Under the pieces are notes generated by a model. It searched no databases, was not told the DNA's origin, and saw only the letters and a program-made list of their open reading frames with translations. Position numbers and translations under genes: made by a program. A DNA stretch of 64,000 nucleotides from Bacteroidales bacterium. GTDB taxonomy: Bacteria > Bacteroidota > Bacteroidia > Bacteroidales > UBA932. Shown here piece by piece: positions 2,554-62,664 of this stretch. Position 1 is the first letter of the stretch; each line of letters begins with the position of its first letter. The stretch lies in NCBI GenBank assembly GCA_016285455.1, contig JAEEQS010000007.1:1-64000 (forward strand). Direction: 5' to 3'.

Positions 2554-3552
2554 ATGGGACTTTTCTCAAGGAAGAAAAAATCGGATTCTTCTCTGGATCT
2601 GGGGCTTCACAAAACCAGGCGGGGATTCTTTTCCAGGATCGCCGATGCCATAACGGGTAAAACCGTTGTAGATGACGAAGTTCTGGAGAGCATAGAAGAA
2701 GCTCTAATTGGATCTGATGTAGGCATAGACACCACATCTGAGATTATGGACAGGCTTCAGGAGAGAGTCCGCAAGGAAAAGGGCATATCCACAGACAGGG
2801 TGATGGATCTTCTCAAAGAAGAGATTGCCGATATGCTTACCTGTTCTTCCACCAATGGTGTTCCTGACGACGAATACGTAGAAACGGCTTTCAAAGACAA
2901 CAGCCGTGTATTCGACTTTTCCAAGAAGCCATACGTAATTATGGTTGTGGGAGTAAACGGAGTCGGCAAAACCACCACTATAGGCAAGATAGCTTCTCAG
3001 TTAAAGGATAGCGGCAAGAAGGTAATGATTGGCGCTTCAGACACTTTCCGAGCTGCCGCGGTTGAGCAGCTTGATATCTGGGCCCAGAGAGCAGGAGTGG
3101 AGATTATCAAGCAGAAGATGGGCGCAGATCCTGCCGCAGTTGCCTTTGACACCTTGAGTTCAGCCGTTGCCAAAGGAGCGGATGTAGTAATCATCGATAC
3201 GGCCGGCAGACTCCATAACAAGATCGGCTTGATGAACGAGCTGACCAAGATCAAGAACGTGATGAAGAAGGTGGTCAGCGATGCTCCTCACGACGTTATG
3301 CTTGTTCTGGACGGCTCCACTGGCCAGAACGCCCTCGTCCAGGCGAGGGAATTCTCAAAGGCCACAGACATTACTTCATTGGCAGTTACTAAGTTAGATG
3401 GCAGTGCCAAGGGCGGAGTTGTTATCGGCATCGCTGAGCAATTCAAGGTTCCTGTAAAATTCATTGGAGTAGGAGAAAAGGTGGGAGACCTGAAGGTTTT
3501 CAACAGGGAAGACTTTGTTGATTCTCTCTTTGACAAGACAAAAGACCAATAG
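2554..3552 (+). CDS. ftsY: Signal recognition particle receptor FtsY
   Basis: 332 aa SRP-receptor GTPase that docks ribosome-SRP complexes at the membrane. A short basic N-terminus MGLFSRKKK replaces the long acidic A domain. The NG domain shows the P-loop GVNGVGKTTT, DTFRAAAVEQL, DTAGR and TKLDGSAKGG motifs. ATG 2554 is chosen because the longer frame (TTG 2518) starts upstream of the predicted transcription start. Contains one ATCGCTGAG 9-mer (3430). Confidence 0.96.
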   Translation: MGLFSRKKKSDSSLDLGLHKTRRGFFSRIADAITGKTVVDDEVLESIEEALIGSDVGIDTTSEIMDRLQERVRKEKGISTDRVMDLLKEEIADMLTCSSTNGVPDDEYVETAFKDNSRVFDFSKKPYVIMVVGVNGVGKTTTIGKIASQLKDSGKKVMIGASDTFRAAAVEQLDIWAQRAGVEIIKQKMGADPAAVAFDTLSSAVAKGADVVIIDTAGRLHNKIGLMNELTKIKNVMKKVVSDAPHDVMLVLDGSTGQNALVQAREFSKATDITSLAVTKLDGSAKGGVVIGIAEQFKVPVKFIGVGEKVGDLKVFNREDFVDSLFDKTKDQ

Positions 3553-3576
3553 CGATAATTATAAAAATCATTAGAT

Positions 3577-6048
3577 ATGGATATTTCTTACAATTGGCTG
3601 AAAGAGTATGTGAAGTTCAATCTCAATCCAGACGAGGTTGCTCAGGCTCTTACCAATATCGGTCTGGAAGTTGAACACCAGGATATGGTGGAAGAGATTC
3701 CGGGCGGACTGGAAGGTGTTGTAACCGCTTATGTGGTTGAGTGTGTTGATCATCCTAATTCAGACCATCTCCACGTGACCAAGGTTGACTGTGGAACAGG
3801 AGAGCTTTTGCAGGTTGTCTGCGGTGCTCCAAATGTGGCTGCTGGCCAGAAGGTTCTGCTTGCTACCATCAACACTAAGCTTGTTATCCACGGAGAAGAA
3901 ATAAAGATAAAGAAGAACAAGATCAGGGGAATTGAGTCCTGCGGTATGATTTGCGCTGAAGATGAGCTTGGAGTGGGAACAGACCACGCCGGCATTATGG
4001 TTCTCCCTTCAGATACTCCTGTGGGTATGAAGGCAAGAGACTATTTCGGCTTCAAAACAGATACTGTTTACACTATCGGCCTTACTCCTAACCGCATAGA
4101 CGCCGCTTCTTTCATCGGAGTTGCCAGAGACCTTAGCGCTTGGCTGAGACTCAACAACCTGGGCGGAGAGCTGACTCTTCCTTCAGTAGCAGATTTCAAG
4201 GCTCCCGAGGCAGACAATGGCTCTGTGGATGTTGTTGTAAACCAGCCAGATGGAGCTCCGCGATATGCAGGCCTTACGATCAAGGGCATTACCGTAAAGG
4301 AGTCTCCTGACTGGATGAAGAAAAAACTTTTGAGCGTTGGCTTCCGTCCTATCAACAACATCGTTGACATTACAAACTACATCCTTATAGAAACCGGAAA
4401 TCCTATGCACGCCTTTGACGTAAATTACGTTAAGGGCAACAAGATTGTGGTGGATTTCTGCCCAGATGGCACTCCTTTCACCACTCTGGATGGTGTGGAG
4501 AGAAAGCTTGACAAACAGGACCTTATGATCTGCAACGCTGAAGGTCCTATGTGCATTGCCGGCGTTTTCGGCGGTCAGGACAGCGGCGTAAAGGACAGCA
4601 CCACTTCTGTTTTCCTGGAGAGCGCTTACTTCAATCCTGTTCTTGTCAGGAAGACTTCCAAGAGGCATACTCTCAAGACTGAGGCTAGCTTCCGCTTTGA
4701 GAGAGGATGCGACCCTAATATGGTTCCATACGCTCTTAAGAGAGCTGCGATGCTGGTTCTTGAACTTGCCGGCGGAGAAATTGTTGGCCCTGTCAAAGAC
4801 GTGATTTCCAAGCCAATCGAGAAGAAGACCGTTGAACTCGACTATGCCAGAATGGAGTCTTTGATGGGCTGCAAGATAGGCAAGGAGAAGATTCATCAGA
4901 TTCTGGAATATCTTGAAATGGAGTTCGTGAACGAGACAGAAACAGGCTGCACTGTAAAGGTTCCTACATACAGGGTGGATGTTTACCGCGAATGCGATGT
5001 GGTGGAGGATGTACTCCGCATCTGGGGCTACAACAATGTTCCGCTTCCTGGCAGCATGAAGTGCTCCGTAAATATTGCTCCGCATCCAGATCCGGAGAAG
5101 ATCAGGAAGACCGCCTGCGAGACCTTGACAGCCAACGGCTTTATGGAGATGATGAACAACTCCCTGACCAAGAGTGCTTACTACGAGGATCTTAAGACTT
5201 ATCCGACAGACAAGCTGGTTATGATCTGCAACCCTCTGTCTTCTGACCTTAACTGTATGAGGCAAACTCTTCTTCTCAACGGACTTGAGGTTGTTGCCTA
5301 TAACATCAACCGCCAGGAGACTCAGCTCAAACTCTACGAGTTTGGAAACGTTTACTCTTTCAACAAAGACTATGTAAAGCCAGAAGAAGAAAGAAGCACT
5401 CTTAAAGCTTACTCCGAGCGTCCTAAACTCTCTATGTTTGTAACTGGAGAAGGGCTCAAGAGCTGGAGAAACCAGACCATCAGCGGAGACTACTTCTCTC
5501 TCAAGGGCTATGTTGAGCTCCTTCTGAAGAAGTTTGCCATCGATATCAAAGACCTTGACTATGAGGGCGCTCCATCTGACATTTTCTCAGAGGGTTTGAC
5601 CTACAAGCTGAAGGCCAGTGGCAAGGAAATCGTGACAATGGGTGCCATAAAGGACAAGCTCGCCAAGAAGTTCGGCATCAAGCAGAAGGTTTATGCCGCT
5701 GAGTTCTCCTGGGATGTCCTTCTGAACAAGATCAAGAAGAACACTGTCAAGTTCACCGAGCTTCCTAGATTCCCTGAAGTTAGGCGAGACCTGGCTTTGC
5801 TTCTGGATTACCAGGTATCCTTCGCCGACCTCAGAACTGCCGCTTACCAGGCAGAAAAGAAGCTTCTGAAGAACATCGTTCTCTTTGATGTCTACACTGG
5901 CGACAAGATTCCTGAGGGCAAAAAGCAGTACGCTATCAGCTTCTATCTCCAGGATCCTGACAAGACCTTGACCGACAAGGCTGTGGATGCAATTATGGAC
6001 AAGCTCCTGAGAATCTTCAAGGAAAGGTTCAACGCTGAACTCAGATAG
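3577..6048 (+). CDS. pheT: Phenylalanine--tRNA ligase beta subunit
   Basis: 823 aa, full length. The beta subunit pairs with PheS (not in this window) to charge tRNA-Phe. Domains in order: EMAP/tRNA-binding OB fold about 39-155 (HPNSDHLHVTKVDCG, CGAPN), B3/4 editing domain about 210-370 (RPINNIVDITNYI, GNPMHAFD), B5 about 410-480, catalytic-like core, and the FDX-ACB anticodon-binding domain at the C-terminus (FPEVRRDLALLLD). It starts 24 bases after ftsY. Confidence 0.96.
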   Translation: MDISYNWLKEYVKFNLNPDEVAQALTNIGLEVEHQDMVEEIPGGLEGVVTAYVVECVDHPNSDHLHVTKVDCGTGELLQVVCGAPNVAAGQKVLLATINTKLVIHGEEIKIKKNKIRGIESCGMICAEDELGVGTDHAGIMVLPSDTPVGMKARDYFGFKTDTVYTIGLTPNRIDAASFIGVARDLSAWLRLNNLGGELTLPSVADFKAPEADNGSVDVVVNQPDGAPRYAGLTIKGITVKESPDWMKKKLLSVGFRPINNIVDITNYILIETGNPMHAFDVNYVKGNKIVVDFCPDGTPFTTLDGVERKLDKQDLMICNAEGPMCIAGVFGGQDSGVKDSTTSVFLESAYFNPVLVRKTSKRHTLKTEASFRFERGCDPNMVPYALKRAAMLVLELAGGEIVGPVKDVISKPIEKKTVELDYARMESLMGCKIGKEKIHQILEYLEMEFVNETETGCTVKVPTYRVDVYRECDVVEDVLRIWGYNNVPLPGSMKCSVNIAPHPDPEKIRKTACETLTANGFMEMMNNSLTKSAYYEDLKTYPTDKLVMICNPLSSDLNCMRQTLLLNGLEVVAYNINRQETQLKLYEFGNVYSFNKDYVKPEEERSTLKAYSERPKLSMFVTGEGLKSWRNQTISGDYFSLKGYVELLLKKFAIDIKDLDYEGAPSDIFSEGLTYKLKASGKEIVTMGAIKDKLAKKFGIKQKVYAAEFSWDVLLNKIKKNTVKFTELPRFPEVRRDLALLLDYQVSFADLRTAAYQAEKKLLKNIVLFDVYTGDKIPEGKKQYAISFYLQDPDKTLTDKAVDAIMDKLLRIFKERFNAELR

Positions 6049-6068: not shown

Positions 6069-6701
6069 ATGAAAAACATCTTGTTAGCGGCAGTCTGCAT
6101 ACTGGCTCTCTCTGCCTGCAAGCAGAACGCCGGCCAGAACACCGAGCAGACCAAAGAGGCGGCTGAAGAAGTAAAGCGCGAGTACCTGTCACAGGATCTT
6201 GCAACATTAGAGCTTTACGGGCAGGTTCAGTCTGTGACATACACAGAGGAGCATGTTTATCCTGTTACCATCTTGTTTGATGAAAAGGGAAGTGTTACCG
6301 CAATTCAAAAGATTCTCAGCGATGAGGAAAAGGAGAATGCTGAATTCTCATACAGTTCAGAAGACGGCGCGATCAAATCCATCCAGTTCCCTTCTGATGA
6401 TCCTTGGATTACATATCTCGGCTATGAAAAAGGACCTGGCTTCAAGGCGCCAAGTTCTTATACAGCTTCCAACCAGACAGGCAATTACACGGAGGAGACT
6501 TACCACCGTGATTCTACAGGCCGAGTTGTCAGCATAGATGTAGAGGAGGCTATACACTTCAATGTAGTGGAAGACAATACTCCTCTCACCGTTGAGTTCT
6601 CAGACTTCGACGAGAAGGGCAACTGGCTCAAATGCACACAAAAGTCTGGCGACAATACTTTTGTAAAGGTCCGCACCATCACTTATTATCCCAAGATGTA
6701 A
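6069..6701 (+). CDS. Hypothetical lipoprotein
   Basis: 210 aa. A signal peptide with lipobox LSAC (Cys17) predicts lipidation and export. The mature part begins with an acidic, probably disordered linker, then repeats short segments built around a Gly-turn between beta strands (YGQVQSVTYTEE, FDEKGSVTAIQK, FDEKGNWLKCTQ), like the antiparallel YD-type repeats of many Bacteroidota envelope proteins. No enzymatic motif is visible. It starts 20 bases after pheT. Confidence 0.75.
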   Translation: MKNILLAAVCILALSACKQNAGQNTEQTKEAAEEVKREYLSQDLATLELYGQVQSVTYTEEHVYPVTILFDEKGSVTAIQKILSDEEKENAEFSYSSEDGAIKSIQFPSDDPWITYLGYEKGPGFKAPSSYTASNQTGNYTEETYHRDSTGRVVSIDVEEAIHFNVVEDNTPLTVEFSDFDEKGNWLKCTQKSGDNTFVKVRTITYYPKM

Positions 6702-7625: not shown

Positions 7626-8891
7626 ATGCGCAAATTCTTTGCTATTTTACTTATTTCAAGCGTGTTATGCTTGGTTATGGCTTCTTGTGAATCTTCCGGA
7701 AATGGAAATCCAGTCCAGGAAGGAATAGGTTCGGTTGTGGTGGCATATGTGAGCGGAGGTCAGGGGAAGCCGCTTCCGGATTTCGGGAAGGTCACTCACA
7801 TAGATTATGCTTTTGGCCGGGTAGACAGTACGTTCTCAGGTTTGAATATTGAGAATCCGGCAAGGTTCAAGGAAATCGCCGAGCTGAAGAACGACTACAA
7901 CAAAACTGCTGGAAGGAAGGTCTTTATGCAGCTTTCCATTGGAGGATGGGGAAGCGGCAGGTTCAGCGAGATGGTCACCGATACCGCTTACAGGCACGCA
8001 TTTGTGGCTTCCTGCAAGAAGGTGGTGGAAGAGTACGGCATAGACGGCATAGACCTGGACTGGGAGTATCCGTCCAGCGGAGTGGCAGGCATTTCTTCAG
8101 CTCCTACAGACATTGACAATTTCACTCTCTGGGTAAAGGAACTAAGAGAGGCTCTCGGACAGGACAAACTCTTGACAATTGCCACCATTTCTACTGCAAG
8201 GTTCATAGATTTCAAGGCAGTAGATCCGTACATAGACTTCTACAACATAATGAGTTACGATATGGATGTGGCTCCTTGTCATCATGCTCCGCTGAAGAGG
8301 TTTGAGACAGAGATTCTCCGCGACAGCCTTATCGGAAACCTCAGGATGGGCTTCGGCTTTATGGGCTATCCGTCTGACTCATCAGTTGCCCAGAAATACG
8401 GGCAGATGTACCAGACTCCGGTCATGCTCAATGCTGATTACTTCAGGCAGTTCGCTGCCAGCCTAACCAAAGAAGAGAATCCTAAGGAGAGCAAGATTGC
8501 GGGGCAGTGCACTACGGAAGAGGCTGTAATGATGCATATTGCAGCAGGCCTGGATCCAAGTAAGCTTGTTCTTGGAATGCCGTTCTACGGCAAGAGCGGA
8601 GGCGGAGTGGAATATCCGTTCCAGAAAGAGTTCTGGGAGACCGGAGAAGTCGGGGAAGGCTACCAGGAAGTCTGGGACGAGATTGCCTGGGTTCCATACA
8701 TCGCAGATGCCGAAGGGAATCTTGTTTACGGCTTTGAAAACGAGCAGTCAATTCGCGCCAAATGCCGCTTTGCCAAGGAGCATCACCTTCTCGGCGCAAT
8801 GTACTGGGAATACTGCATCGATGCAGGACGCATCGAGCCTTTCCGCAATAAACTAATTAACGCTGTCGCTGAGGAAATCCTCAACAATTGA
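7626..8891 (+). CDS. Glycoside hydrolase family 18 lipoprotein (chitinase-like)
   Basis: 421 aa. Signal peptide with lipobox MASC (Cys20), so probably surface or periplasmic and lipid-anchored. The GH18 TIM barrel is shown by KVFMQLSIGGWGSGRFSEM (the SxGG motif) and the catalytic DGIDLDWEYP, whose last Glu is the proton donor, plus IMSYDMD and the late tryptophan in GAMYWEYCIDAG. A KLVLGMPFYGKS stretch is also typical. Substrate could be chitin, chitooligosaccharides or an N-glycan (endo-beta-N-acetylglucosaminidase activity); sequence alone does not decide. Confidence 0.88.
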   Translation: MRKFFAILLISSVLCLVMASCESSGNGNPVQEGIGSVVVAYVSGGQGKPLPDFGKVTHIDYAFGRVDSTFSGLNIENPARFKEIAELKNDYNKTAGRKVFMQLSIGGWGSGRFSEMVTDTAYRHAFVASCKKVVEEYGIDGIDLDWEYPSSGVAGISSAPTDIDNFTLWVKELREALGQDKLLTIATISTARFIDFKAVDPYIDFYNIMSYDMDVAPCHHAPLKRFETEILRDSLIGNLRMGFGFMGYPSDSSVAQKYGQMYQTPVMLNADYFRQFAASLTKEENPKESKIAGQCTTEEAVMMHIAAGLDPSKLVLGMPFYGKSGGGVEYPFQKEFWETGEVGEGYQEVWDEIAWVPYIADAEGNLVYGFENEQSIRAKCRFAKEHHLLGAMYWEYCIDAGRIEPFRNKLINAVAEEILNN

Positions 8892-9677: not shown

Positions 9678-10571
9678 TTAGTAGAACTTTACTGGGGTGC
9701 CTTCAAGGGAGGTAAGGACCTTGTTGGCAAGGCTGCTGGCTCCGATTCTGAAGAACTTAGGAGTGAGCTGCTCCCTTCCCATAGTGTGCTCAACAATAGT
9801 CAGATAGAGTATGGCGTCCTCTGAAGAGGAAACGCCGCCGGCTGGCTTGAAGCCTCTTCTGCTGCCGGTCTTTTCCATAAAGGCCTTCAGGCATTTGCAC
9901 ATAACCAGAGCGGCGATAGGGGTTGCGCTTGGCTCCTGCTTTCCGGTAGAAGTCTTGATAAAGTCCGCGCCACACTCAAGGGCCAGGAGAGAAGCCTCTG
10001 CAATGGCCTCGAGGCCTTCCTGGAGGGTAGGGTAGCCGGTCTGGAGAGCGCCGCTTTCCAGAATCACTTTCAGAGTTTTGCCTTCGGTAACTTTTCTCAG
10101 CGATTGGATCTCGTTTCTTGTATCCTTTTCATTTCCTGCAACAAAGAAGCTGTGAGGAAGAACAATGTCTATCTCTGTGGCGCCGTCTTCAATGGCGTGC
10201 CTTGTTTCCAGCTCTTTGACGTCGAGGAAGCTCTGCGATGAAGGGAAGCAGGCGGAAACTGTGGTAATGCCCACGCCTTCTTCCTTGAGAGTGGCTTTCA
10301 CGGTCTTGGCAAAGTTAGGATAAACGCAGATAGATGCCGGAAGCGGATACTGTGGATATTGAGCCTTGAACTTGTTTACCTTGTCAGTGAACTTTTCTAT
10401 GAACTCTGGAGTGTCTGATGTGTGGAGGCTGGTAAGGTCTATTGCTCCAAGAGCAATTTTCAGGTTTTCTGCACTGAAGTTGGCCTTGGCCTTTTCTCTT
10501 ATTGCAATAAGTTCTTTTTCAATGTTTTCTGCATCGATTTCCAGGTTGTACTTTTTAAGAATCTCTTTCAT
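9678..10571 (-). CDS. deoC: Deoxyribose-phosphate aldolase
   Basis: 297 aa class I aldolase that splits 2-deoxyribose 5-phosphate into glyceraldehyde 3-phosphate and acetaldehyde, the last step of deoxynucleoside catabolism. The Schiff-base lysine lies in DFIKTSTGK and the second active-site lysine in GFKPAGGVSS; ATEIDIVL holds the catalytic Asp. Longer than the 250-260 aa E. coli type because of an N-terminal helical extension. Last gene of the minus-strand run 13684-9678, 12 bases after dtd. Confidence 0.94.
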   Translation of the reverse strand: MKEILKKYNLEIDAENIEKELIAIREKAKANFSAENLKIALGAIDLTSLHTSDTPEFIEKFTDKVNKFKAQYPQYPLPASICVYPNFAKTVKATLKEEGVGITTVSACFPSSQSFLDVKELETRHAIEDGATEIDIVLPHSFFVAGNEKDTRNEIQSLRKVTEGKTLKVILESGALQTGYPTLQEGLEAIAEASLLALECGADFIKTSTGKQEPSATPIAALVMCKCLKAFMEKTGSRRGFKPAGGVSSSEDAILYLTIVEHTMGREQLTPKFFRIGASSLANKVLTSLEGTPVKFY

Positions 10572-11850: not shown

Positions 11851-13050
11851 TTATGCTATTCGTGTTGACTTGGTGTCTTTAGTTATTCTGAAATCATCCA
11901 GGTTTTCCAGAAGGACAATTCCAGGAGTTTTGCCTTCCTTGATGCTTCCCAGAGTGTCTTGCTTACCAAGGAGCTCTGCTCCGTTAGTGCAGGCCCATTT
12001 GAGGATTTGGCCAAGTTCAAGGCTAGGGAAGTTATCCTGAAGGCATTCCATTTCCCTTATCATATCCAGTATGAGGTTGGAAGACAGGCTGTCTGTTCCA
12101 AGGCAAATCTTAAGATTGTTCTTCATCATAAGGTCAATCGGCGGGAGCTGCCTGTGAATGAAGATGTTGGAAAGAGGGCAGATGGTAAAGAACGGAGACT
12201 CTAACGCCTCTTTAGCCCTGTCTATGCTCTTTTGGCTGATGACAACGTTGTGTACAAGATTTATCCTTCCCTGAACCTTTTTGTCTTTCTCAGCGATTAG
12301 GTCTATGAAGTATTCCAGTGCCGTGCCTCCGGTAACAGGCGGGGTGGAAAGTCCTCTTGAGCGGTAGTTGTCTGCCAGAGCTCCGCTGCCTTTAGCTATC
12401 ATATCCTCTTCTTCCTGGCTTTCCTGGCTGTGGTAGGAGATAGAGCCACTCTCAAGGCCCCGCTTTGCCGTGATTTCCAGAAGCTTGGGACTCATAGTAT
12501 AGCAGGAATGCGGAGTGACCGAAGCATCCAGCCCCATAGCCGTAGCCTGGTCTGCTACCTTTTGCCCGCCTTCCAGAATGGCTTCTGAATCGGCTTTCTC
12601 GGTACCGAAGAGCTCCACAAAAGTTCTGTAATAGACCTTTTTCTGATACTCTTTCTTCAGAGGAAAACTTTCATTGCAGTTGCTGATGTCGGAAACCGCA
12701 ACAACACCCTGGCGGTAAAAGTTTTCGAATTCTGCCTGCATGGCCTTCAGACGGCCTTGCTCATCCACGCTTTCTCGGAGCTCGTTAATCTGGTTGATGA
12801 ATCCGCTCATTCCGGTGGCCTGGCGGAAGACTCCCTTAAGGTGTGAAAGCTCAATGTGGCAGTGGGCATTCACCATTCCTGGAATAAGCGTTCCCTTGTG
12901 GTACTCTATATCCTGCGCCTTGAGATCTTTATCGGTGAACTGGCTTACAGACAAGATCTTGCCGCCTTCATCGGTGACAATCAAAGGCCTTTCCACCGGC
13001 TTAAGGGAGCCGTTGAGGGTAAAAGCATAGTCTGCCGCTATCTTTTTCAT
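11851..13050 (-). CDS. Metal-dependent amidohydrolase (deaminase-like)
   Basis: About 399 aa from ATG 13050; the longer frame to 13110 would overlap the preceding gene by 50 bases, so it is not chosen. TIM-barrel metal sites: NAHCHIELSHLKG (HxH), VTPHSCYTMS, LVHNVVIS and the final catalytic LGTDSLSSN. The layout matches the S-adenosylhomocysteine/aminofutalosine/chlorohydrolase deaminase group. The exact substrate cannot be read off; no other menaquinone-futalosine genes are nearby, so that assignment is only one option. Confidence 0.85.
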   Translation of the reverse strand: MKKIAADYAFTLNGSLKPVERPLIVTDEGGKILSVSQFTDKDLKAQDIEYHKGTLIPGMVNAHCHIELSHLKGVFRQATGMSGFINQINELRESVDEQGRLKAMQAEFENFYRQGVVAVSDISNCNESFPLKKEYQKKVYYRTFVELFGTEKADSEAILEGGQKVADQATAMGLDASVTPHSCYTMSPKLLEITAKRGLESGSISYHSQESQEEEDMIAKGSGALADNYRSRGLSTPPVTGGTALEYFIDLIAEKDKKVQGRINLVHNVVISQKSIDRAKEALESPFFTICPLSNIFIHRQLPPIDLMMKNNLKICLGTDSLSSNLILDMIREMECLQDNFPSLELGQILKWACTNGAELLGKQDTLGSIKEGKTPGIVLLENLDDFRITKDTKSTRIA

Positions 13051-18119: not shown

Positions 18120-18169
18120 TCTAATCGCTGAGAATTAAAGAATTACAACATCAAAACTAATATTACATC

Positions 18170-47258: not shown

Positions 47259-47262
47259 AACA

Positions 47263-49356: not shown

Positions 49357-50151
49357 TTAGTAGTCGCCAGCGTTTTCGAAGGATATAATGCCTTCGTAGT
49401 AGAGTTTCCACTTCTGGCCGTTGCTCAGGGAAACGTCTATGTTTGCCACATAACCCTTGCCGGAAACCATTTCAAGGCTGAAGTATCCTGTGGCGGTAAT
49501 CGGAAGTACATCCCACATCTCGTTTCTTATGACGGGATCATAGTCTCTGCTGAGATAGATGGTAATGTCGTTGTCGTTGTTGTTTCTTACAGAGCATAAG
49601 AAGCAGGTGTCGAATTCGTCGAGAGATGAAAGCGGTTTGGAAACGTCTATTTTCTTGCCAAGATCGCGGTCCATCAGCATCATTATGAAATGCTCGGTAC
49701 CGTCTGTGAAATCCACCTCATAGTAATTGACTACTCCGGGAGAGTCATAAACCTTGTAGCCTGAAGCCTTCTTTATCGGGTAGGAGAGGCTGCCTTTTGT
49801 CATTGTCCAATAAACCTTGATATTAGCTTCCGTTCTTACGGCATCGCAAACTGCAATCAGCTTGGCACTTCCGGCAGCAGCTCCCGTTACCTTGCCGTTT
49901 TCATAAGTGGCTATGTCCGGCTTGTTTACATTTACCTGGAGGTTGCCGGTGTTGGTGGCGTTCTCAGGAGTTGTTGTAATGACAACCGGAAGACTCTGGC
50001 CGATGAACATCTCCATTGAGTTAGGAAGGATTTCTATTCCAGTTACGGGAATGGGCTTGCTGCTTTTGCCGCAGGAGGCAAGAATTACCATCGCTGAGGC
50101 GGCCAATGATAAAAGATTTAATATACGTCTGGTTTTGTTCAGTTCTTTCAT
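49357..50151 (-). CDS. Lipoprotein with BIG2-like Ig domain
   Basis: 264 aa. Lipobox LASC. Residues about 35-110 (PVTGIEILPNSMEMFIGQSL, VTGAAAGSAKLIAV) are a bacterial Ig-like (BIG2) domain; the C-terminal part (LMDRDLGKKIDVSKPLSSL) is not recognised. Lies inside the signalling operon, one base before psuK. Confidence 0.8.
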   Translation of the reverse strand: MKELNKTRRILNLLSLAASAMVILASCGKSSKPIPVTGIEILPNSMEMFIGQSLPVVITTTPENATNTGNLQVNVNKPDIATYENGKVTGAAAGSAKLIAVCDAVRTEANIKVYWTMTKGSLSYPIKKASGYKVYDSPGVVNYYEVDFTDGTEHFIMMLMDRDLGKKIDVSKPLSSLDEFDTCFLCSVRNNNDNDITIYLSRDYDPVIRNEMWDVLPITATGYFSLEMVSGKGYVANIDVSLSNGQKWKLYYEGIISFENAGDY

Positions 50152-50484: not shown

Positions 50485-52692
50485 TTATTGTATTTTCTTT
50501 GTTAGCGTAAGTATGTTCTTGTTATCCTGACGTTTGTAGGTGACACTGTCCATAATTTTGCGGTATAGGTGAATGCCCAGTCCTCCAATAGGTCTGTCTA
50601 CAGCCACCTTGCTAGTATCAACATCCGGAGCTTGGGTAGGGTCGAACGGTTTGCCGCAGTCTGTAATGGTAAAGATGATTTCATCCGGGGTGCTCTCGGC
50701 TTGTATATTCACCTTTTCTGAGCCTGAATACATAATCACATTGGTCACCGCCTCTTCCATAGCAAGATTTATGCTAGATTCAACAGGGTGAGGAATATGG
50801 TGTTCCTCAGCGATTTTGCTGATCAAGCCTTCTAGGCGGCTAAGCTGGCTGATGTCGTTTGTAAGAGTTATGCTGTGCATGGATTTGCTTTGCGCTGGCT
50901 TGTTATCTTCTGTATTATTCAGATAGTGGAAAAAGAGCATTGTGAGGTCGTCGCTCTGAGGAGCCTCCTTGACAAAGTCCGCAACGGCCTTCTTCACATT
51001 GTCCAGATGGGCCTGGGCAGGCTTTCTGCCGGAAAGGGTTTCTTTCAGTCTCTGGATGCCGAACAGTTCGTGAGCAGGATTTTCTGCCTCCGTGATGCCG
51101 TCGGTATAAAGGAAGATAGCGTCGTCGTGATGGAGTGTCACCTCTTGCAGGGTAAATTCCATATTGCGTATGACGCCTAGCGGAAGGTTCGGATTTACAG
51201 GAAGTTCGCTAATCTTGTCGGTGAAGATAAGGGGAGCGTTGTGACCGGCGTTGCAGTACTGCATCTTTCCGGTTTTCAGGTTCAGAACGCAGCAGATGAA
51301 AGTCACGAACATATTGCTTTCGTTCATATCTGACATGCTTTTGTTCATACTGGTGACCATATCCTTTGGATTGTCATTATGGGCGCCAATGGTGCGGAAG
51401 AGGCTTCTTGTAACCGCCATCAGCAAAGAGGCCGGCACGCCTTTTCCGCTCACGTCTCCGATGCAGAAGAAGAGCTTTTCGTCGCGGATAAAGAAGTCAT
51501 AGAGATCTCCGCTGACTTCCTTTGCCGGAACCAGTGCGGCAGAAAGATCTATGTCTTTTCTCTCTGGGAATGGCGGGAAAGTCTTTGGTATCATAGACAT
51601 CTGGATGTCGCTGGCAATCTTCAGCTCGCCCTCCATTAACTCCTTCTTCTCTGATAAGGACTTGAACCTTAACTGACTCTTGGCAATCGCACGGAAGATC
51701 ATTATTATAAGAAGAAGACCAAGAACCTGAAGTATCCTTATAAGATTGTCAAGTTTCCTCAGGTCTGCGAACATCTCTTTTTCAGGAATGATGATATTCA
51801 TTGCCCAGCCTGTCTTGTCTATAGGGGCGTAGTAGACCATATTCTTCTCGCCATTGTGAGATACTTGAATGCTTCCGGTTTCCCTGTTGAGCATAGCCCT
51901 GTTGAGAGCGTTGAAATGGGCTGTATCTTTGACGGTTGCGGCATACTCGTCTATGGTGGTGTTCATTATGAGGCTGTTGTCTGGACTTACCAGAAGCCTT
52001 CCGGTGCGGCTGACAACAGTGCTGAATGCCCCGGGATAAATCTTGGTTTCGTGGGCAAGGGCGGTAAGCCACTCAAGGTCAAGGTCTGCGGTAAGCACTG
52101 CGGCGGTTTTTCCCTGGCTGTCCTTGATAGGAACGGAGTAGGTGGTCATCAGGATTTCTCCGCCTCCGGTATCCACGTAAGGTTCGGACCAGTATCCCCT
52201 GTCCAGCTCGATAGGCTTGACAAACCATTCTTGAGACGGATAGTCATACTCCGGAGTAGCCAGTGAAGTTTCTATGATTTCCCCGTTAGTTATTGCAGTG
52301 TACGGAGAGTACAGCGGCCTGTCTTTATAATAATTTGGAACCATTGCTATTGTGGAGCCGGCCACAAGCGGGTTGTTGTTTACAATCAGCTTTGGAATGT
52401 TGGCCAGGCTGTCCGGAACCTGAAGGCTCCACTGGGCTACCCAAACGCTGTTTCTCACGGCGCTTTCTACCTGATTTACAATGTTGAGGATTCCGCTTCT
52501 GCTTGCGTCCAGCTGGCTCTCTGCCTTTGTCTTTGCCTCCTGGCGTATGCCTTCCTGGGCGTAATATGCCTGGACAAGCGATATGGCTTCCAGAATGGCC
52601 ACAGAAACAATGATAAGCAGAAGACCAGTCCACCTGGTTCTTCTTTTCATTGCTTTTTCAGCAAGTTTCTTTGTGCGCTCCGTTACATTCAT
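50485..52692 (-). CDS. Cache-PP2C(SpoIIE)-HATPase partner-switching protein (RsbU-RsbW fusion)
   Basis: 735 aa. Membrane segment (about 22-43), extracytoplasmic dCache-like sensor (about 50-310, DYPSQEWFVKPIELDRGYWS), second membrane segment (about 325-345), SpoIIE/PP2C phosphatase (AALVPAKEVSGDLYDFFI, FCIGDVSGKGVPASLLMAV) and a C-terminal HATPase anti-sigma kinase domain (SINLAMEEAVTNVIMYSG, GLGIHLYRKIMD). Phosphatase and switch kinase in one chain act on the adjacent STAS protein. Overlaps the next upstream gene by 4 bases. Regulated output unknown: Bacteroidota lack SigB. Confidence 0.9.
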   Translation of the reverse strand: MNVTERTKKLAEKAMKRRTRWTGLLLIIVSVAILEAISLVQAYYAQEGIRQEAKTKAESQLDASRSGILNIVNQVESAVRNSVWVAQWSLQVPDSLANIPKLIVNNNPLVAGSTIAMVPNYYKDRPLYSPYTAITNGEIIETSLATPEYDYPSQEWFVKPIELDRGYWSEPYVDTGGGEILMTTYSVPIKDSQGKTAAVLTADLDLEWLTALAHETKIYPGAFSTVVSRTGRLLVSPDNSLIMNTTIDEYAATVKDTAHFNALNRAMLNRETGSIQVSHNGEKNMVYYAPIDKTGWAMNIIIPEKEMFADLRKLDNLIRILQVLGLLLIIMIFRAIAKSQLRFKSLSEKKELMEGELKIASDIQMSMIPKTFPPFPERKDIDLSAALVPAKEVSGDLYDFFIRDEKLFFCIGDVSGKGVPASLLMAVTRSLFRTIGAHNDNPKDMVTSMNKSMSDMNESNMFVTFICCVLNLKTGKMQYCNAGHNAPLIFTDKISELPVNPNLPLGVIRNMEFTLQEVTLHHDDAIFLYTDGITEAENPAHELFGIQRLKETLSGRKPAQAHLDNVKKAVADFVKEAPQSDDLTMLFFHYLNNTEDNKPAQSKSMHSITLTNDISQLSRLEGLISKIAEEHHIPHPVESSINLAMEEAVTNVIMYSGSEKVNIQAESTPDEIIFTITDCGKPFDPTQAPDVDTSKVAVDRPIGGLGIHLYRKIMDSVTYKRQDNKNILTLTKKIQ

Positions 52693-53522
52693 AATACTGA
52701 TTCCAATGCAGCCCTGAAATTAGGCATCGGGCATTTGGTGTCTCTTTCAATAATAAGTGTCTTCAGACCCGCGTAAGGGCGGATCATTTCCTCAGTGTCT
52801 TTGAGGTTTATGCCTTCCCCGAAATAAAGCGGGGCGAAAGTGTCCCAGAATTTCATTGCCACAGGCTTAGGCATATGGTAGGTCTCCTGGATGAATTCCG
52901 CGTCGCTGAGGTAACAGCACAGGTAAACCATTCCAAGGTCGAACAGGCGGTTGCCGCGGCAGAAATCGCCGAGGTCTATAAAATACTTCCTGCCGTCTGG
53001 TGTAAATATGGCGTTGCTGAACTGCAGGTCTCCGTGAAGGGCAGTGTTTTCATCTGGAGTGTCTGAAATGAATTTTCCCAGCTTGTCTTTTTCTTTAACG
53101 GTGAAGAAAGGGTTCTCTTCCAGTAGCTTATAGTAGCGGTCTTTGACGTTGTAAAAGTCTTTTGGGTTTAGCTGAATCTTATGGAGTTCCAGGCACATCT
53201 GGGTAAATTCCGCGGCATACTGTGGTATGTTTTCCGGGTTGTCACCGATAGCTCTGGAGTAAGATTTCTTGCCCACTATTCTCTTGAAACGTATGCCGTA
53301 GCGGCCGTCTTCCGTAACCACATACTCTCCAGGCTCAGGAGTAGGGATTCCCAGCTGGTAAACCTTCTTTGCCATCAGCATTTCATCCAGCGGCTGGCTT
53401 ATCTTGCCCGGGAAATACAGCTTGAGCATAATGGAAGGGTCTGTCTTGTGGTCGTAGCTCTCTCCGTTGGCACCGCCCCCAGAAAGAACATAATCGCTGA
53501 GAGAAATCTTGATAGGCTCCAT
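52689..53522 (-). CDS. Aminoglycoside-phosphotransferase-like kinase (TIGR02172-like)
   Basis: 277 aa. APH-type kinase fold with the catalytic loop ALHGDLQFSNAIF (HGD, N) and metal site YFIDLGDFCRGNRLFDLGMV. It resembles the TIGR02172 domain family, which is known in Bacteroidota and Fibrobacter. Substrate unknown; the gene lies between the partner-switching protein and the alarmone hydrolase, so a regulatory target is possible. Confidence 0.82.
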   Translation of the reverse strand: MEPIKISLSDYVLSGGGANGESYDHKTDPSIMLKLYFPGKISQPLDEMLMAKKVYQLGIPTPEPGEYVVTEDGRYGIRFKRIVGKKSYSRAIGDNPENIPQYAAEFTQMCLELHKIQLNPKDFYNVKDRYYKLLEENPFFTVKEKDKLGKFISDTPDENTALHGDLQFSNAIFTPDGRKYFIDLGDFCRGNRLFDLGMVYLCCYLSDAEFIQETYHMPKPVAMKFWDTFAPLYFGEGINLKDTEEMIRPYAGLKTLIIERDTKCPMPNFRAALESVL

Positions 53523-56541: not shown

Positions 56542-58722
56542 CTAGGAAATAGCAGAATAATCTTTGACGTCTTTCCCCTGCTTTCTGAGGATTGCCAATT
56601 GAGCTGCAAGAAGCTTGTTGTCAGCCTTCTGGAGCAGGGGATCGTCGTCCAGTATATCCAGAGCCGTTCTCCTGGCCTCTTCCAGAGCCTGCCCGTCGCG
56701 GTAAAGCGAGGCAATGTGCAGGTCTATTGCAAGGCCGCTCTGCGATGTGCCCTCAAGGTCTCCCGGGCCTCTCATCTTCATGTCTTCTTCCGCAAGCACA
56801 AAGCCGTCTGTTGTCTTGCACATAAGTTCCAGCCTTTTGCGGCTTTCCTTGCTGAGCTTATAGCCGCTCATAAGTATGCAGTAGCTCTTGGCCGCTCCTC
56901 TTCCCACTCTTCCGCGGAGCTGGTGGAGCTGGCTCAGCCCGAACCTTTCCGCGCTCTCTATTACCATAACAGATGCGTTAGGAACATCCACTCCAACTTC
57001 TATAACGCTGGTGGCCACCAGTATATGAGCTCTCCCGCTGGCAAACAGGTTCATATCTATTGCCTTGTCTTCCGGCTTCATCTTGCCGTGGACAACGGCC
57101 GTTATGTACTGTGGCGTTTTGAATTCCTCTATGATGCGCATATATCCTGCTTCAAGGTTCTCGTAGTCCATCTTCTCGCTTTCCTTTATCAGCGGATAGA
57201 CAACAAATACCTGCCGACCCTGGTCTATCTGACTGCGCATAAACTCAAATACCTGCCGTCTCTGGTTTTCCCAGGCGTGGGTTGTAACCACAGGCGTACG
57301 GCCTGGAGGCATTTCGTCTATAATGCTGACGTCCAGATCTCCGTAGAGAGTCATAGCCAGGGTTCTAGGGATAGGGGTGGCCGTCATTACCATTATGTGC
57401 GGAGCCAAATTTTCTGCTTGGGCTTCTTCGTTCTTGCTCCACAGCCGGCTTCTCTGATCTACGCCAAAGCGGTGCTGCTCGTCTATTATGGCAAGTCCCA
57501 AAGCGTGGAACTTGACCCTATCTTCTATGAGGGCGTGAGTACCAACGATTATGTTCAGAGTTCCTTCTTCAAGGTCTTTCAGAATCTGCTTCCTTTCCTT
57601 GGCCTTGGTGCTTCCTGTAAGAAGGGCAATCTTTGCATCAGTGGCCTTGAGAAATTTTGATATGCTTGCAAGATGCTGCAGGGCAAGCACTTCAGTAGGG
57701 GCCATAATGCAGGCTTGGTAGCCGTTGTCTATCGCGATTAAACTCAAGAGAACCGCAACCAGAGTCTTGCCGCTTCCAACGTCTCCCTGAAGCAGGCGGT
57801 TCATCTGCTTCCCGCTGCGCATATCTTCCCGCATTTCCTTTATCACCCGTTTCTGGGCTCCCGTAAGAGGGTATGGCAAAGAGGCATAGCAGCGGTTGAA
57901 ATTGCTTCCGACCTTGGTCATCATAATGCCGCCGCTTTTTGAAAGGCGGACGTTTCTTTGCTTAAGAAGGCTAAGCTGAAGGTAGAAAAGCTCCTCGAAC
58001 TTAAGCCTTTTCTGGGCTGCTTCCAGTTCTCTTTGGCCAGCGGGGAAGTGGATGTTTCTCAGAGCCTCTTCCAGAGGACAGAGGCCCTTGGAACGGATTA
58101 GAGACTGCGGAAGGGTTTCTTCTATATGACCCTTGACCTTTTCCAGAAGAACGCTCTGGATTTTGGTTATGGCCTTTATTCCCATTCCGGAATTCTTCAT
58201 CTTTTCCGTAATAGAGTATATGCCTGCCATTGAGCCTGTTCCGTAAGTCAAGGCTTCAGATGGCTTATAAATTTCTGGATGAACAAGATTCACGTGACCG
58301 TTGAAGATGGAGGGCTTTCCAAAGGCAATGAACTCCTCTCCCTGGACCAGCTTTTCGCTTATCCATTTCAGGCCGGAGAAAAAAACAAGTTCCATCTTTC
58401 CCGTGGCATCCTGGAGGGTGGCGACAAGGCGAGATTTCCCCTTTACCGTCCGGCCTGAGACAAGGCCCGCGTATTCCTTCTTCACAACCACTCCCCTGAT
58501 CTGTATATAAGAAGAAGATGGAGCGTCATCCCCTTCAAGAGTCTGAGAGCTCAGGATGGAGCTTATTGGATAGACCTTGCTCTTGTCTATCCACCTGAAA
58601 GGAAAGTAGTAGAGCATATCTCTGAAGGTATGCACATCTGCCTCCTTTGCCAGCAGCTCCGCCCTCTTTGGGCCGATTCCCGGAAGGTACTTTATGTCCG
58701 TGTCCAATATGCCGGTTTTCAT
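56542..58722 (-). CDS. recG: ATP-dependent DNA helicase RecG
   Basis: 726 aa from ATG 58722 (MKTGILDTDIKYLPGIGPKR). Wedge domain at the N-terminus, then SF2 motifs: I LLQGDVGSGKTLVA, II IDEQHRFGV, III TATPIPRTLA, VI QLRGRVGRG. Processes stalled forks and branched DNA. The open frame reaches TTG 58731, which lies in a -7 box TAAATTTG (58736-58729), so the ATG is used and the mRNA may be leaderless. Confidence 0.95.
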   Translation of the reverse strand: MKTGILDTDIKYLPGIGPKRAELLAKEADVHTFRDMLYYFPFRWIDKSKVYPISSILSSQTLEGDDAPSSSYIQIRGVVVKKEYAGLVSGRTVKGKSRLVATLQDATGKMELVFFSGLKWISEKLVQGEEFIAFGKPSIFNGHVNLVHPEIYKPSEALTYGTGSMAGIYSITEKMKNSGMGIKAITKIQSVLLEKVKGHIEETLPQSLIRSKGLCPLEEALRNIHFPAGQRELEAAQKRLKFEELFYLQLSLLKQRNVRLSKSGGIMMTKVGSNFNRCYASLPYPLTGAQKRVIKEMREDMRSGKQMNRLLQGDVGSGKTLVAVLLSLIAIDNGYQACIMAPTEVLALQHLASISKFLKATDAKIALLTGSTKAKERKQILKDLEEGTLNIIVGTHALIEDRVKFHALGLAIIDEQHRFGVDQRSRLWSKNEEAQAENLAPHIMVMTATPIPRTLAMTLYGDLDVSIIDEMPPGRTPVVTTHAWENQRRQVFEFMRSQIDQGRQVFVVYPLIKESEKMDYENLEAGYMRIIEEFKTPQYITAVVHGKMKPEDKAIDMNLFASGRAHILVATSVIEVGVDVPNASVMVIESAERFGLSQLHQLRGRVGRGAAKSYCILMSGYKLSKESRKRLELMCKTTDGFVLAEEDMKMRGPGDLEGTSQSGLAIDLHIASLYRDGQALEEARRTALDILDDDPLLQKADNKLLAAQLAILRKQGKDVKDYSAIS

Positions 58723-58774: not shown

Positions 58775-59869
58775 ATGAAACAGAAACTTGTAATCGGAAT
58801 TACGCAGGGAGACAGCAATGGAATAGGCTATGAAGTTATCATCAAGGCCCTTTCCAATGCCAATGTGCTGGAACTTTTTACTCCGGTGGTTTACGGCTCC
58901 TCTAAAGCTTTCGGGTACTACCGCAAGCAAATACCTGAAACAGAAAATATTAACACTAATCTTATATCTTCCGCCAAAGATGCTCATCCAAAGAGGGTGA
59001 ATATCGTAAACTGTGTTGGAGATGACCTTCCGATTGAGCCAGGAAAGCTTACGCACGAAAGCGCCAAGGCTGCCATAGCTTCTCTGGAAATGGCGGTTAA
59101 GGAAGCCAAGGCCGGGTACATAGATGTCATAGTTACTGCTCCTTTCAGCAAAAAGGGAGTTACCCTGGAGCATTTCAAGTATGCCGGCCACACGGGATAT
59201 CTGATAGAGACTTTCGGGGCAAAGGACGGACTGATGTTTATGTGCTCAGACACTCTGAGAGTGGGCGTTGTAACTATGCACATTCCGCTTAAGGATGTAT
59301 CTTCTTCCATCAGCAAGGAGCTTATAATGAGCAAGCTCCGATTGATGAACGAATCGCTGAGGAAAGATTTCAGAATTGAGCGGCCGAAGATTGCCGTTCT
59401 GGGTCTCAACCCTCACGCGGGAGACAGGGGACTTTTGGGAGATGAGGAACAAAACATTATAATTCCTGCCATAAAGGAGGCTAACGCTGAGGGCATAGAC
59501 ACCTTTGGGCCTTTCCCTCCTGATGGGTTCTTTGCGGCCACTCTCCAGGGCAAGTACGATGCTGTGCTTACTATGTATCACGACCAGGGGCTGATACCGT
59601 TCAAGACGCTTAGCTTTGATTCCGGAGTTAACTACACCGCCGGCCTGCCTGTCATAAGAACTAGTCCGGATCACGGAACTGCATTTGACATTGCAGGCCA
59701 GAACAAGGCCAATCCGCACTCTATGCTTTCCGCGATTTACCTTGGCATAGATATTTACCGCAACCGTGAACATTACCTCCAGATACACGCTAACCCGATG
59801 ACTGCCCAGATTCCTGGAAACGACGACAATACTCGCAGGGGACCGGCTCCGGAAGCAGAAACTGAATAA
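58775..59869 (+). CDS. pdxA: 4-hydroxythreonine-4-phosphate dehydrogenase
   Basis: 364 aa from ATG 58775 (MKQKLVIGITQGDSNGIGYE). Pyridoxal-phosphate synthesis. ITQGDSNGIGYE, HAGHTGYLIE-like GHTGYLIETFG, GLNPHAGDRGLLGDEE and MYHDQGLIPFK with metal-ligand histidines are PdxA landmarks. C-terminal 20 residues are charged and variable. One base before rnhA. Confidence 0.94.
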   Translation: MKQKLVIGITQGDSNGIGYEVIIKALSNANVLELFTPVVYGSSKAFGYYRKQIPETENINTNLISSAKDAHPKRVNIVNCVGDDLPIEPGKLTHESAKAAIASLEMAVKEAKAGYIDVIVTAPFSKKGVTLEHFKYAGHTGYLIETFGAKDGLMFMCSDTLRVGVVTMHIPLKDVSSSISKELIMSKLRLMNESLRKDFRIERPKIAVLGLNPHAGDRGLLGDEEQNIIIPAIKEANAEGIDTFGPFPPDGFFAATLQGKYDAVLTMYHDQGLIPFKTLSFDSGVNYTAGLPVIRTSPDHGTAFDIAGQNKANPHSMLSAIYLGIDIYRNREHYLQIHANPMTAQIPGNDDNTRRGPAPEAETE

Positions 59870-60341: not shown

Positions 60342-61349
60342 ATGGACAATATACTTGGAAAAAGAAACCTGAAGTTCGCGATGGTGGGCAGCGGAAGCTG
60401 GGCTACGGCTCTGGTAAAGCTGCTTATGAACCATCAGGAAAAAATATCTTGGTTTATAAGAGACCAGAAAAACATAGACCGAGTGATGAAGAATCACCGC
60501 AACAAGGTATATCTGAGTTCCGTAATTCTGGAGCCGGACCGCCTGTTTATGAGTACAGACATAAACGCGGTGGTAGATAGCGCAGACGTTCTTGTTTTCT
60601 GTATCCCGAGCGCTTATTTTCTTGGAGTTATGGAGAAGCTTACTGTTTCTCTGGACAGCAAGTTCATCATTTCCGCCATCAAGGGCTTTGTGGGAGAGAG
60701 GACGATCGCCGAGTATTTCAACCAGGTTCACCACATTCCTTACGACAGGATAGGCGTAGTCAGCGGCCCTTGCCACGCTGAGGAAGTGGGAATGGAAAGG
60801 CTTTCCTATCTGACATTCACCAGCAAATACATTGCAACGGCCAAGACCCTCTGCGATTTCTTTGAGTGCGATTATGTAAGGACAATGCCGGGAACGGACA
60901 TCTACGGAGTGGAATACGCTGCCGCGCTTAAGAATATTTACGCTATTGCCGCGGGAATCGCGCACGGTCTGGGCTATGGAGACAATTTTCTTTCTGTGCT
61001 GATGACCAGTTCTTTCAAGGAAATGACCGAGTTCCTGAACGCATCGCATCCGGACAAGAAACGCAATGTTCTTACTTCTCCTTATCTGGGAGACTTGCTT
61101 GTTACCGGTTACAGCCAGTTCAGCCGCAATCGCACTTTCGGAAGCATGATAGGAAAGGGCTATTCCGTCAGAAACGCTCAGGTGGAAATGAATATGGTGG
61201 CTGAAGGCTATTACGCAAGTGCGGCTATCAATCTTATAAACAAGAAATACAGAGTTGAGATGCCTATAGCAGAGGCTGTTTACGACATACTCTACGAGGA
61301 GAAGTATCCGGCTTACGTGCTAAAGAGACTGAGCGACAAACTTTACTAG
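60342..61349 (+). CDS. gpsA: Glycerol-3-phosphate dehydrogenase [NAD(P)+]
   Basis: 335 aa. Nucleotide-binding MVGSGSWATALVKLL (GxGxxA), SAIKGFVGERTIA, SGPCHAEEVGMERL and the catalytic-lysine region EYAAALKNIYAIAAG. Makes sn-glycerol 3-phosphate for phospholipids. Three bases after rnhA. Confidence 0.94.
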   Translation: MDNILGKRNLKFAMVGSGSWATALVKLLMNHQEKISWFIRDQKNIDRVMKNHRNKVYLSSVILEPDRLFMSTDINAVVDSADVLVFCIPSAYFLGVMEKLTVSLDSKFIISAIKGFVGERTIAEYFNQVHHIPYDRIGVVSGPCHAEEVGMERLSYLTFTSKYIATAKTLCDFFECDYVRTMPGTDIYGVEYAAALKNIYAIAAGIAHGLGYGDNFLSVLMTSSFKEMTEFLNASHPDKKRNVLTSPYLGDLLVTGYSQFSRNRTFGSMIGKGYSVRNAQVEMNMVAEGYYASAAINLINKKYRVEMPIAEAVYDILYEEKYPAYVLKRLSDKLY

Positions 61350-61362
61350 AAACCTAAGGATT

Positions 61363-62664
61363 ATGCTTAAGCTTCATACTGATATGATAGAGCCCTTCAT
61401 AGGGCCTGAAGATTTCAAGGGGGCAATGGACAGGGCTTTGCAAGCCTACGACACCCTCCTTTCTGGAACCGGTCCTGGCGGTGAGATGACCGGCTGGCTG
61501 GATCTTCCAGTCAAGACTCCGGAGAAAATTCTGGCGGATTGCAAAATGATTGCAAACCGCTGGCTGGGAACGATGGACGTGGTTGTGGTGATAGGAATCG
61601 GAGGATCCTTCCTCGGGGCTAAATGCGCTCTGGAAGCGTTTTCCCACAGTTTTGCCAGCGCCGGAGAGAGAAATAGCCCTCACATAGTCTTTGCAGGATA
61701 TTCTCTCAGCGAGGACTATATGTCTGACCTTCTGGGCTATCTGAAGAAGAAATCTTACGGAATGATTGTCATATCCAAGTCAGGCACTACCATAGAGCCT
61801 GCCCTGGCATTCAGGATTCTGAGGAACGATATGCTTAAGAGGTTTGGGGTTGAGGATACCAGAAGGAGAATAGTAACTGTCACCGATGAGAGTAACGGAG
61901 CCCTCAGGGCGATGAGCGAGAAATACGGATACACTTCTCTTCCAGTGCCTTCCAATGTGGGCGGGCGCTATTCTGTACTTACGGCTGTGGGTCTTCTTCC
62001 GATTGCTGTAGCGGGATTCGACGTTGAGAGTTTCCTGGGAGGGGCAGCGGAGGCAAGGGAGCATCTTCTCAAGAAAGACAAGAGCAATCCGGCCTTGGTT
62101 TACGCATCGCTGAGGAACATTATGTACCGGTGCGGCAAGAAAATTGAGGTATTCGTCAATTATCATCCAAAGCTCAAGTATCTGGGAGAGTGGCTCAAGC
62201 AGCTTTTTGCCGAGAGCGAGGGCAAGCAGCTCAAGGGGCTTTTCCCTGCCACTCTGGACTTTACCACAGACCTGCATTCCGTAGGCCAGTATATTCAGGA
62301 TGGAGAGAGGACAATGTTTGAGACTTCCATTCTGGCAGGAAGCAAGGAGGTGGAGGTGTTTGTTCCTAAATCTACAGACAATCTCGACGGCCTGGACTAT
62401 CTTGTGGGAAGGACTCTGGAAGATATCAACTTTATGGCGGAGAAGGGTACCAGAATGGCACATACCAGCGGCAATGTTCCAAATATCTACATAGAGATGG
62501 AGAAGATAGACGAGTGGAATATGGGACAGCTCTTCTACTTCTTTGAATTCTCCTGTGCCGTAAGCGCCTATATGCTGGGCGTAAATCCTTTTGACCAGCC
62601 TGCAGTTGACGTTTACAAGAACAATCTTTACAAGTTGCTGGGAAGACCGGGATATACGGAATAG
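61363..62664 (+). CDS. pgi: Glucose-6-phosphate isomerase
   Basis: 433 aa, the shorter bacterial form. SIS domains: VVIGIGGSFLGAKCALEA, VISKSGTTIEPALAF, GGRYSVLTAVGLLP and DFTTDLHSVGQYIQDG. Interconverts glucose- and fructose-6-phosphate. It is the fourth gene of the pdxA operon. Confidence 0.94.
   Translation: MLKLHTDMIEPFIGPEDFKGAMDRALQAYDTLLSGTGPGGEMTGWLDLPVKTPEKILADCKMIANRWLGTMDVVVVIGIGGSFLGAKCALEAFSHSFASAGERNSPHIVFAGYSLSEDYMSDLLGYLKKKSYGMIVISKSGTTIEPALAFRILRNDMLKRFGVEDTRRRIVTVTDESNGALRAMSEKYGYTSLPVPSNVGGRYSVLTAVGLLPIAVAGFDVESFLGGAAEAREHLLKKDKSNPALVYASLRNIMYRCGKKIEVFVNYHPKLKYLGEWLKQLFAESEGKQLKGLFPATLDFTTDLHSVGQYIQDGERTMFETSILAGSKEVEVFVPKSTDNLDGLDYLVGRTLEDINFMAEKGTRMAHTSGNVPNIYIEMEKIDEWNMGQLFYFFEFSCAVSAYMLGVNPFDQPAVDVYKNNLYKLLGRPGYTE

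Follow-up and report, generated by a model that had tools for sequence, protein, structure and literature searches.

What accounts for the repeated occurrence of a nine-base word, ATCGCTGAG, across a 64-kb stretch of Bacteroidales DNA (assembly GCA_016285455.1, contig JAEEQS010000007.1, positions 1 to 64,000; hereafter the window)? In the present study, the word was followed from the window into its whole assembly (2,151,071 bases in 25 contigs), into a set of 39 genomes of the genus, and into a family survey of 149 genomes, the source genome included in the latter. The genus consists of uncultured Bacteroidales, known largely from rumen metagenome-assembled genomes such as RUG11482 (G097), RUG234 (G108), and RGIG10157 (G167). 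The motif of which ATCGCTGAG is the peak is probably a DNA uptake sequence (DUS), or works like one. It looks like a new DUS-like word in Bacteroidales, a group for which no report of such a tag was found; the literature search, which covered titles and those abstracts that were shown, with preprints outside its range and subscription journals sparse, returned no uptake word for Bacteroidota.

Over-representation of the word

Nineteen exact copies of ATCGCTGAG are present in the window, the first starting at 3430 and the last ending at 62114. Nine are on the plus strand (3430–3438, 16370–16378, 18124–18132, 25502–25510, 37061–37069, 50090–50098, 53493–53501, 59353–59361, and 62106–62114) and ten on the minus strand (6315–6323, 10096–10104, 12289–12297, 17060–17068, 18817–18825, 27956–27964, 33087–33095, 40844–40852, 41413–41421, and 50806–50814). 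An earlier note on this DNA had reported the same 19 copies, divided in the same way, against about 0.5 expected by chance; in 100 dinucleotide shuffles of the window the mean was 0.58 and the largest count 3. No other 9-mer is commoner in the window. Across the assembly there are 625 copies, 308 forward and 317 reverse, whereas the reversed word, used as a control, occurs 0 times forward and once in reverse. The genome-wide count is therefore not near expectation, and the over-representation of ATCGCTGAG is confirmed as real and genome-wide. Very high genome-wide over-representation of a word of 9–12 bases is a property of DUS and of the uptake signal sequences (USS) of Pasteurellaceae.

The coding context was analysed in a 455-kb sample of the assembly that includes the window. 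Most copies there, 125 of 138, are within open reading frames (ORFs), as would suit an artefact of codon usage, a protein motif, or a repeat family; 12 are intergenic and one overlaps an ORF end. Density is 0.29 per kb within ORFs and 0.38 to 0.42 outside, and the two intergenic sites of the earlier note (18124 and 41413) do fall between ORFs of 100 amino acids or more. The ORF copies are divided between sense (68) and antisense (57), and the spread of reading frames that had been described for the window is also seen in the sample: phases 0, 1, and 2 hold 47, 0, and 21 sense copies and 32, 4, and 21 antisense copies. There are no sense copies in phase 1 because that phase would put TGA in frame. 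When synonymous codons were shuffled in 350 genes, 200 times, the mean was 6.5 and the maximum 15, compared with 121 observed copies. As this falls far short of the observed count, the excess is not a coding artefact, and neither codon bias nor a codon pair or gene family explains it, in agreement with what had been proposed from the window. Together with the presence of copies on both strands, in several frames, and between genes, and with flanks that are unrelated among the 19 window copies, this leaves an artefact with practically no probability.

A second word, GTCTATG, is enriched in the same sample (33 sense and 123 antisense copies; codon-shuffle means 18 and 39). It was set aside as a further word of this kind, being mostly antisense to genes.

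Degenerate motif and downstream flank

A degenerate motif, RTCG[CG][TCG]GA[GC], has the exact word as its peak and is present 51 times in the window. Positions T2, C3, G4, G7, and A8 are hard, with single-base mismatches near background; positions 1, 5, 6, and 9 are soft. At position 1 a G variant is found 26 times against 1.4 expected, and position 6 takes any base (C, 60 against 1.2; G, 32 against 2.0; A, 29 against 3.0). Position 9 tolerates T or A, and position 5 has some tolerance. When 8-mers were ranked under a third-order Markov model, the top 18 all fitted either this motif or the form ATCGCGA.

In the window, the commonest variant is ATCGCCGAG, at 7875–7883 (+), 20476–20484 (+), 21352–21360 (−), 25172–25180 (−), 28004–28012 (+), 52965–52973 (+), and 60705–60713 (+). 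It is followed by ATCGGTGAC at 590–598 (−), 7974–7982 (−), 12970–12978 (+), 39299–39307 (−), 53241–53249 (−), and 61879–61887 (−), by ATCGCGGAG at 4256–4264 (−), 24206–24214 (−), 34693–34701 (+), 37151–37159 (+), 39597–39605 (+), and 48096–48104 (−), and by GTCGCCGAG at 23396–23404 (−), 31512–31520 (−), 34800–34808 (+), and 48945–48953 (−). Found once each are ATCGCTGAC (3274–3282, −), GTCGCGGAG (8316–8324, −), GTCGCTGAC (17616–17624, −), ATCGGCGAG (20761–20769, +), ATCGGCGAC (32015–32023, +), ATCGGGGAC (41184–41192, −), and ATCGGTGAG (63681–63689, +). Among the one-mismatch copies reported earlier, GTCGCTGAG is where it had been placed at 8865–8873 (+), while its second copy is at 52902–52910 (+) and not near 52911; ATCGCTGAT, given as near 24142, is at 24143–24151 (+) and does not fit the degenerate motif in the form given above. 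Taken one by one, not all variants reach significance within the window (ATCGCTGAT, 1 against 0.54 expected).

Downstream of the motif, positions +10 to +13 are A-rich (z = 8.8, 3.7, 4.6, and 6.6 for A in 362 copies). This is seen in sense and in antisense copies, with more scatter in the 26 intergenic copies. An AT-rich 3′ flank of the USS type is thus present, and the copies of a related word in other species of the genus, CTGTCGGGA, are likewise A-rich downstream.

Orientation

A Chi-like recombination signal or an FtsK-orienting (KOPS-like) polar word, read by RecBCD/AddAB or by FtsK, would also be a short word, strongly over-represented throughout the genome, in and between genes. Chi and KOPS words are polar. 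Neighbouring exact copies of ATCGCTGAG are on one strand in 58 of 130 pairs in the 455-kb sample, and neighbouring degenerate copies in 119 of 290 pairs on three contigs, which is, if anything, under half. Relative to local GC skew, 153 degenerate copies run with it and 140 against. Replication-linked strand polarity was therefore not detected in these local tests along contigs, the origin being unmapped, and, with 308 and 317 copies on the two strands, the word lacks orientation bias, as do DUS and USS. Since the motif is unpolarised, Chi and KOPS fit poorly; the A-rich flank and the soft positions also speak against them. They were rejected on the lack of polarity and on the turnover of the word within one genus, described below, and such a role is considered improbable.

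Variation of the word between species

Among the 12 members of the genus sampled in the family survey, four have more than 100 copies of ATCGCTGAG (625, 543, 289, and 263); counts in the remaining eight range from 3 to 40, and the maximum outside the genus is 53. In 12 of the 39 genomes it is CTGTCGGGA that is abundant, with 125–717 copies in roughly balanced orientation. In the stretches read, copies of CTGTCGGGA are scattered, their flanks are unrelated, TCG..GA are the hard positions, and the sequence downstream is A-rich.

The two words share half-sites at different distances. Half-sites, and the form RTCGCNGAG, were counted in the fetched stretches only, 6 to 509 kb per genome; the half-site counts leave out the larger genome of L092 and several congeners for which hardly any DNA, or none, was fetched, and the samples in the word survey are small for G003 (20 kb), G108 (6 kb), G172 (7 kb), and G160 (24 kb). 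RTCG-N2-GA has an observed/expected ratio of 2.66–4.35 in all ten N2 species sampled, that is, the source genome (900 against 207) and nine congeners. RTCG-N1-GA has a ratio of 1.87–7.69 in G003 (64 against 8), G045, G086, G164, G140, G162, and G165. Because the half-site counts split N2 from N1 species in this way, a common core with one base of spacer as the main difference describes these dialects. Older branches of the genus have the form CYRTCGGGA, an RTCG-N1-GA word; among the N1 species profiled, the core is commonly preceded directly by CY, a tendency that is weaker in the pooled loci L095–L103.

In the PheT tree, which covers all 39 genomes, one 12-row group (support 99, with three unresolved branches) unites the ten N2 species with G152 and G170 and is adjoined by G140, G162, G165, and G174; the N1 word CTGTCGGGA is scattered over older branches. 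There are, then, clade dialects with a conserved inner core, and some species have an excess of both spacers.

A third dialect, GCATCTGAAC, proposed for G061, was withdrawn, as it occurs in clusters with fixed spacings and is a repeat array. The arrays are at L031 7614–14302 and L034 465–1172, with alternating orientation and recurring spacings of 24, 87, 100, and 111; clusters of GCATCTGAAC are found in G149 too.

Persistence in relatives and foreign-looking DNA

To estimate the persistence of the motif, nine N2 species were compared over the orthologous DNA that surrounds pheT (at most 22 kb). Of 771 aligned cases, 384 had the motif retained in a same-dialect relative. For 60 column-shuffled control motifs of equal degeneracy the weighted value was 0.256, and three of the 60 were above 0.50; the other 11 of the 71 shuffled motifs, each with under 60 aligned copies, had been dropped. 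Among relatives that do not belong to the N2 group, of which four were compared, 33 of 294 copies were kept, against 0.090 for the controls. The comparison was made without the genus loci L084, L092, and L110 and loci L093–L103 and L106, and because the pairs are non-independent these values are estimates to which no P value is attached. The exact letters are barely more conserved than other 9-mers (0.272 against 0.255). What persists is therefore the class of motif rather than its letters, and this holds only under a matching dialect.

The longest motif-free gap of the window contains an island (41583–47574) of 36.5% GC, compared with 47.6% for the rest. Among 98 five-kb bins only two are without the motif, with 34.1% and 39.2% GC, and both look foreign: one has a type I restriction locus and an integrase, the other four family-less proteins and an LHH nuclease. 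Low GC lowers counts by itself and the gap of the window alone has P = 0.18, so that the depletion of the island is supportive only.

These results bear on a further explanation, in which the motif is the site of a chromosome-organising, repair, or methylation-linked system, maintained in the manner of HIP1, with a specificity that drifts between species. A bipartite core, positional tolerance, and a maintained state would suit any sequence-specific DNA-binding protein, and HIP1 words have been linked to methyltransferases (PMC4390886). However, ATCGCTGAG is not a palindrome of the HIP1 type. A palindrome does exist in ATCGCGAT (57731–57738 in the window), formed by two overlapping copies, one per strand, of the one-base-spacer core ATCG-C-GA, but its enrichment in the genome sample is less than that of ATCGCTGAG. 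The scarcity of the word in foreign-looking segments also counts against this explanation, and we know of no chromosome-binding protein that drives hundreds of word copies with clade dialects. A maintained site of this kind is considered unlikely.

The genes of the island in the window include a C5 methyltransferase with an excisionase-like helix-turn-helix (HTH), a MuF_C protein, a HigB-like toxin next to an antitoxin-like HTH protein, and several ORFs without any family. The type I restriction locus at L020 90–5795 has three hsdS-like genes, with an integrase between these and hsdM. Type I restriction loci with several hsdS-like genes can be invertible.

Putative uptake machinery and a candidate receptor

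A ComEC-type translocase (PF03772) is present in 38 of the 39 genomes, the source genome included. The source genome also has a DUF5689 protein paired with a CarboxypepD-regulatory barrel; BACON/Endonuclease_NS and Exo_endo_phos proteins complete the operon-like row. According to the passages cited, transformation in Riemerella anatipestifer requires two proteins whose locus tags are adjacent, one of them a DUF5689 protein and the other a CarboxypepD-regulatory outer-membrane protein (PMC8459023), and the outer-membrane step of DNA entry is described as unclear for Porphyromonas (PMC11532111). A narrower form of the uptake explanation, compatible with it, is that this operon is the uptake device and that one of its surface proteins is the receptor of the word.

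The distribution of the operon gives arguments for and against this role. Its barrel is found in 15 of the 39 genomes (13 full length and two contig-edge pieces), all ten N2 species among them. The barrel of G140, G162, and G165, which use N1 words, is 69% identical. G152, which is among the carriers on the PheT tree, has neither DUF5689 nor a full barrel in its draft genome, and there RTCGCNGAG is near background (5 against 3 for the reversed form). However, G152 retains a weak N2 signal (57 against 25), and the association of operon and dialect follows the species tree. Furthermore, in the draft genomes of G003, G045, and G169, where the N1 word CTGTCGGGA is strong, there is no DUF5689 and no PF01223 (Endonuclease_NS) match, and six further CTGTCGGGA species (G153, G154, G155, G158, G163, and G164) are without a DUF5689 match, also in draft genomes. 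The operon could equally serve DNA scavenging. A role as the uptake device is therefore regarded as doubtful.

Another barrel, OMP_b-brl_4, found via G086, seemed to be the uptake barrel but was set aside: its match in the source genome is on contig C23, while the DUF5689 operon is on C9, and no DUF5689 was found in G003. G061 and G086 have fused BACON-DUF5689-Endonuclease_NS proteins whose neighbours are an OMP_b-brl_4 barrel and a BACON protein that matches OB folds weakly (G061, L211 6704–9460, 3455–6685, and 1879–3441; G086, L208 8097–10310, 4856–8062, and 2683–4854). These loci are a possible surface DNA-processing system in their own right.

Interpretation

The uptake explanation is favoured because of the genome-wide counts, the lack of polarity, the A-rich 3′ flank, the dialects with a shared core, the dialect-specific persistence, and the near-universal ComEC. 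The earlier note had leaned towards a word linked to uptake or recombination, and away from a strand-skewed chi site, although the window alone did not let it decide; the same evidence supports that leaning.

A number of observations weigh against it. ComEC is equally present in G027, a genome without a clear word. A PF00437 pilus-type ATPase is above cut-off in none of the 39 genomes, with 31 weak matches below it (other pilus parts and a ComP counterpart were not searched for), and the type IV pilus machinery of the two known families is thus not in evidence, as judged by PF00437 only. The receptor is at best a candidate, the putative one being encoded in the DUF5689 operon, and for the N2 dialect. 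Spacing is only marginally more regular than random (Kolmogorov–Smirnov P = 0.053 for exact copies and 0.29 for the degenerate motif). A is raised not at +10 to +13 alone but at some further flank positions too, −5 among them. Decayed copies form hardly any halo around the motif, as mismatches at the hard positions are at background level. Depletion in islands is partly a low-GC effect; the gap of the window is not significant by itself, as noted, and 2 and 3 motif copies are present in another two bins of low GC. The dialect split is a matter of degree and is not clean: N2 species also have an excess of N1 (1.26–2.29) and of a four-base spacer (1.29–1.94), N2 is in excess by 2.09 in G003 (23 against 11), and the N1 excess of G061 and G119 is mild. 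A milder RTCG-N2-GA excess is also found outside the genus, in the Prevotella-like loci L115 (99 against 49) and L109 (64 against 38).

Also outside the genus, L112 has a mild RTCG-N1-GA excess (32 against 17). Codon usage may be the source of the half-site excess in L115, L109, and L112.

We infer uptake preference as the cause of the enrichment, and a receptor other than a type IV pilin. In the mechanism proposed, a DNA receptor in the envelope would prefer double-stranded DNA with RTCG-N2-GAG followed by an A-rich tract, ComEC would move one strand inward, and recombination would insert the incoming strand. Because word-bearing DNA would be taken up more often, copies would enter the chromosome and stay there, accumulating on both strands wherever proteins tolerate them. 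If the reading of the receptor changed, the dialect of the genome would slowly follow; the main change here would be the lengthening, by one base, of the spacer that separates the half-sites RTCG and GA. A word with dialects predicts a sequence-specific receptor, one that word-bearing DNA could fish out, and would imply frequent transformation in uncultured rumen Bacteroidales.

Comparison with known uptake systems

In the passages cited, DNA uptake sequences have so far been attributed only to Neisseriaceae and Pasteurellaceae (PMC12616744). The motif described here is classed as working like a DUS and not as a member of either family, because PF00437 is above cut-off in none of the 39 genomes. 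We lean, with caution, towards an uptake-sequence system outside both families, in Bacteroidota, with a non-pilin outer-membrane receptor and with dialects that arise by a change of spacer between RTCG and GA.

The USS of Pasteurellaceae (AAGTGCGGT and ACAAGCGGT) are described in the passages cited as having a 9-base core, an AT-rich tract just 3′, no orientation bias, and two subclade types (PMC1626085), with an inner core that is conserved across types (PMC12616744), all of which is similar to the present motif. However, the word is unrelated, its core is bipartite with a spacer that changes in length, no second AT segment stands out, and there is no pilus-type ATPase above cut-off.

Likewise, the DUS of Neisseriaceae, as far as these are covered in the passages cited, have several dialects along the species tree with a common core, a TGA in one frame of nearly all dialects, and overlapping dyads in one species (PMC3630211, PMC7371117), and DUS-poor stretches mark islands in Neisseria (PMC7371117); here the foreign-looking segments are also poor in the word, in part through low GC. 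The word is different, however, and the cited passage describes the DUS of Neisseria without flanking motifs (PMC1626085).

Within Bacteroidota, the passages on Riemerella and Porphyromonas differ from the present case in that they name no uptake word, and Riemerella columbina is described in the source passage as preferring its own DNA in competition. In the passages cited, transformation in Riemerella and Porphyromonas is dependent on ComEC and no pilus is implicated (PMC8459023, PMC11532111), which resembles the genus investigated here, with ComEC in 38 of 39 genomes and PF00437 above cut-off in none.

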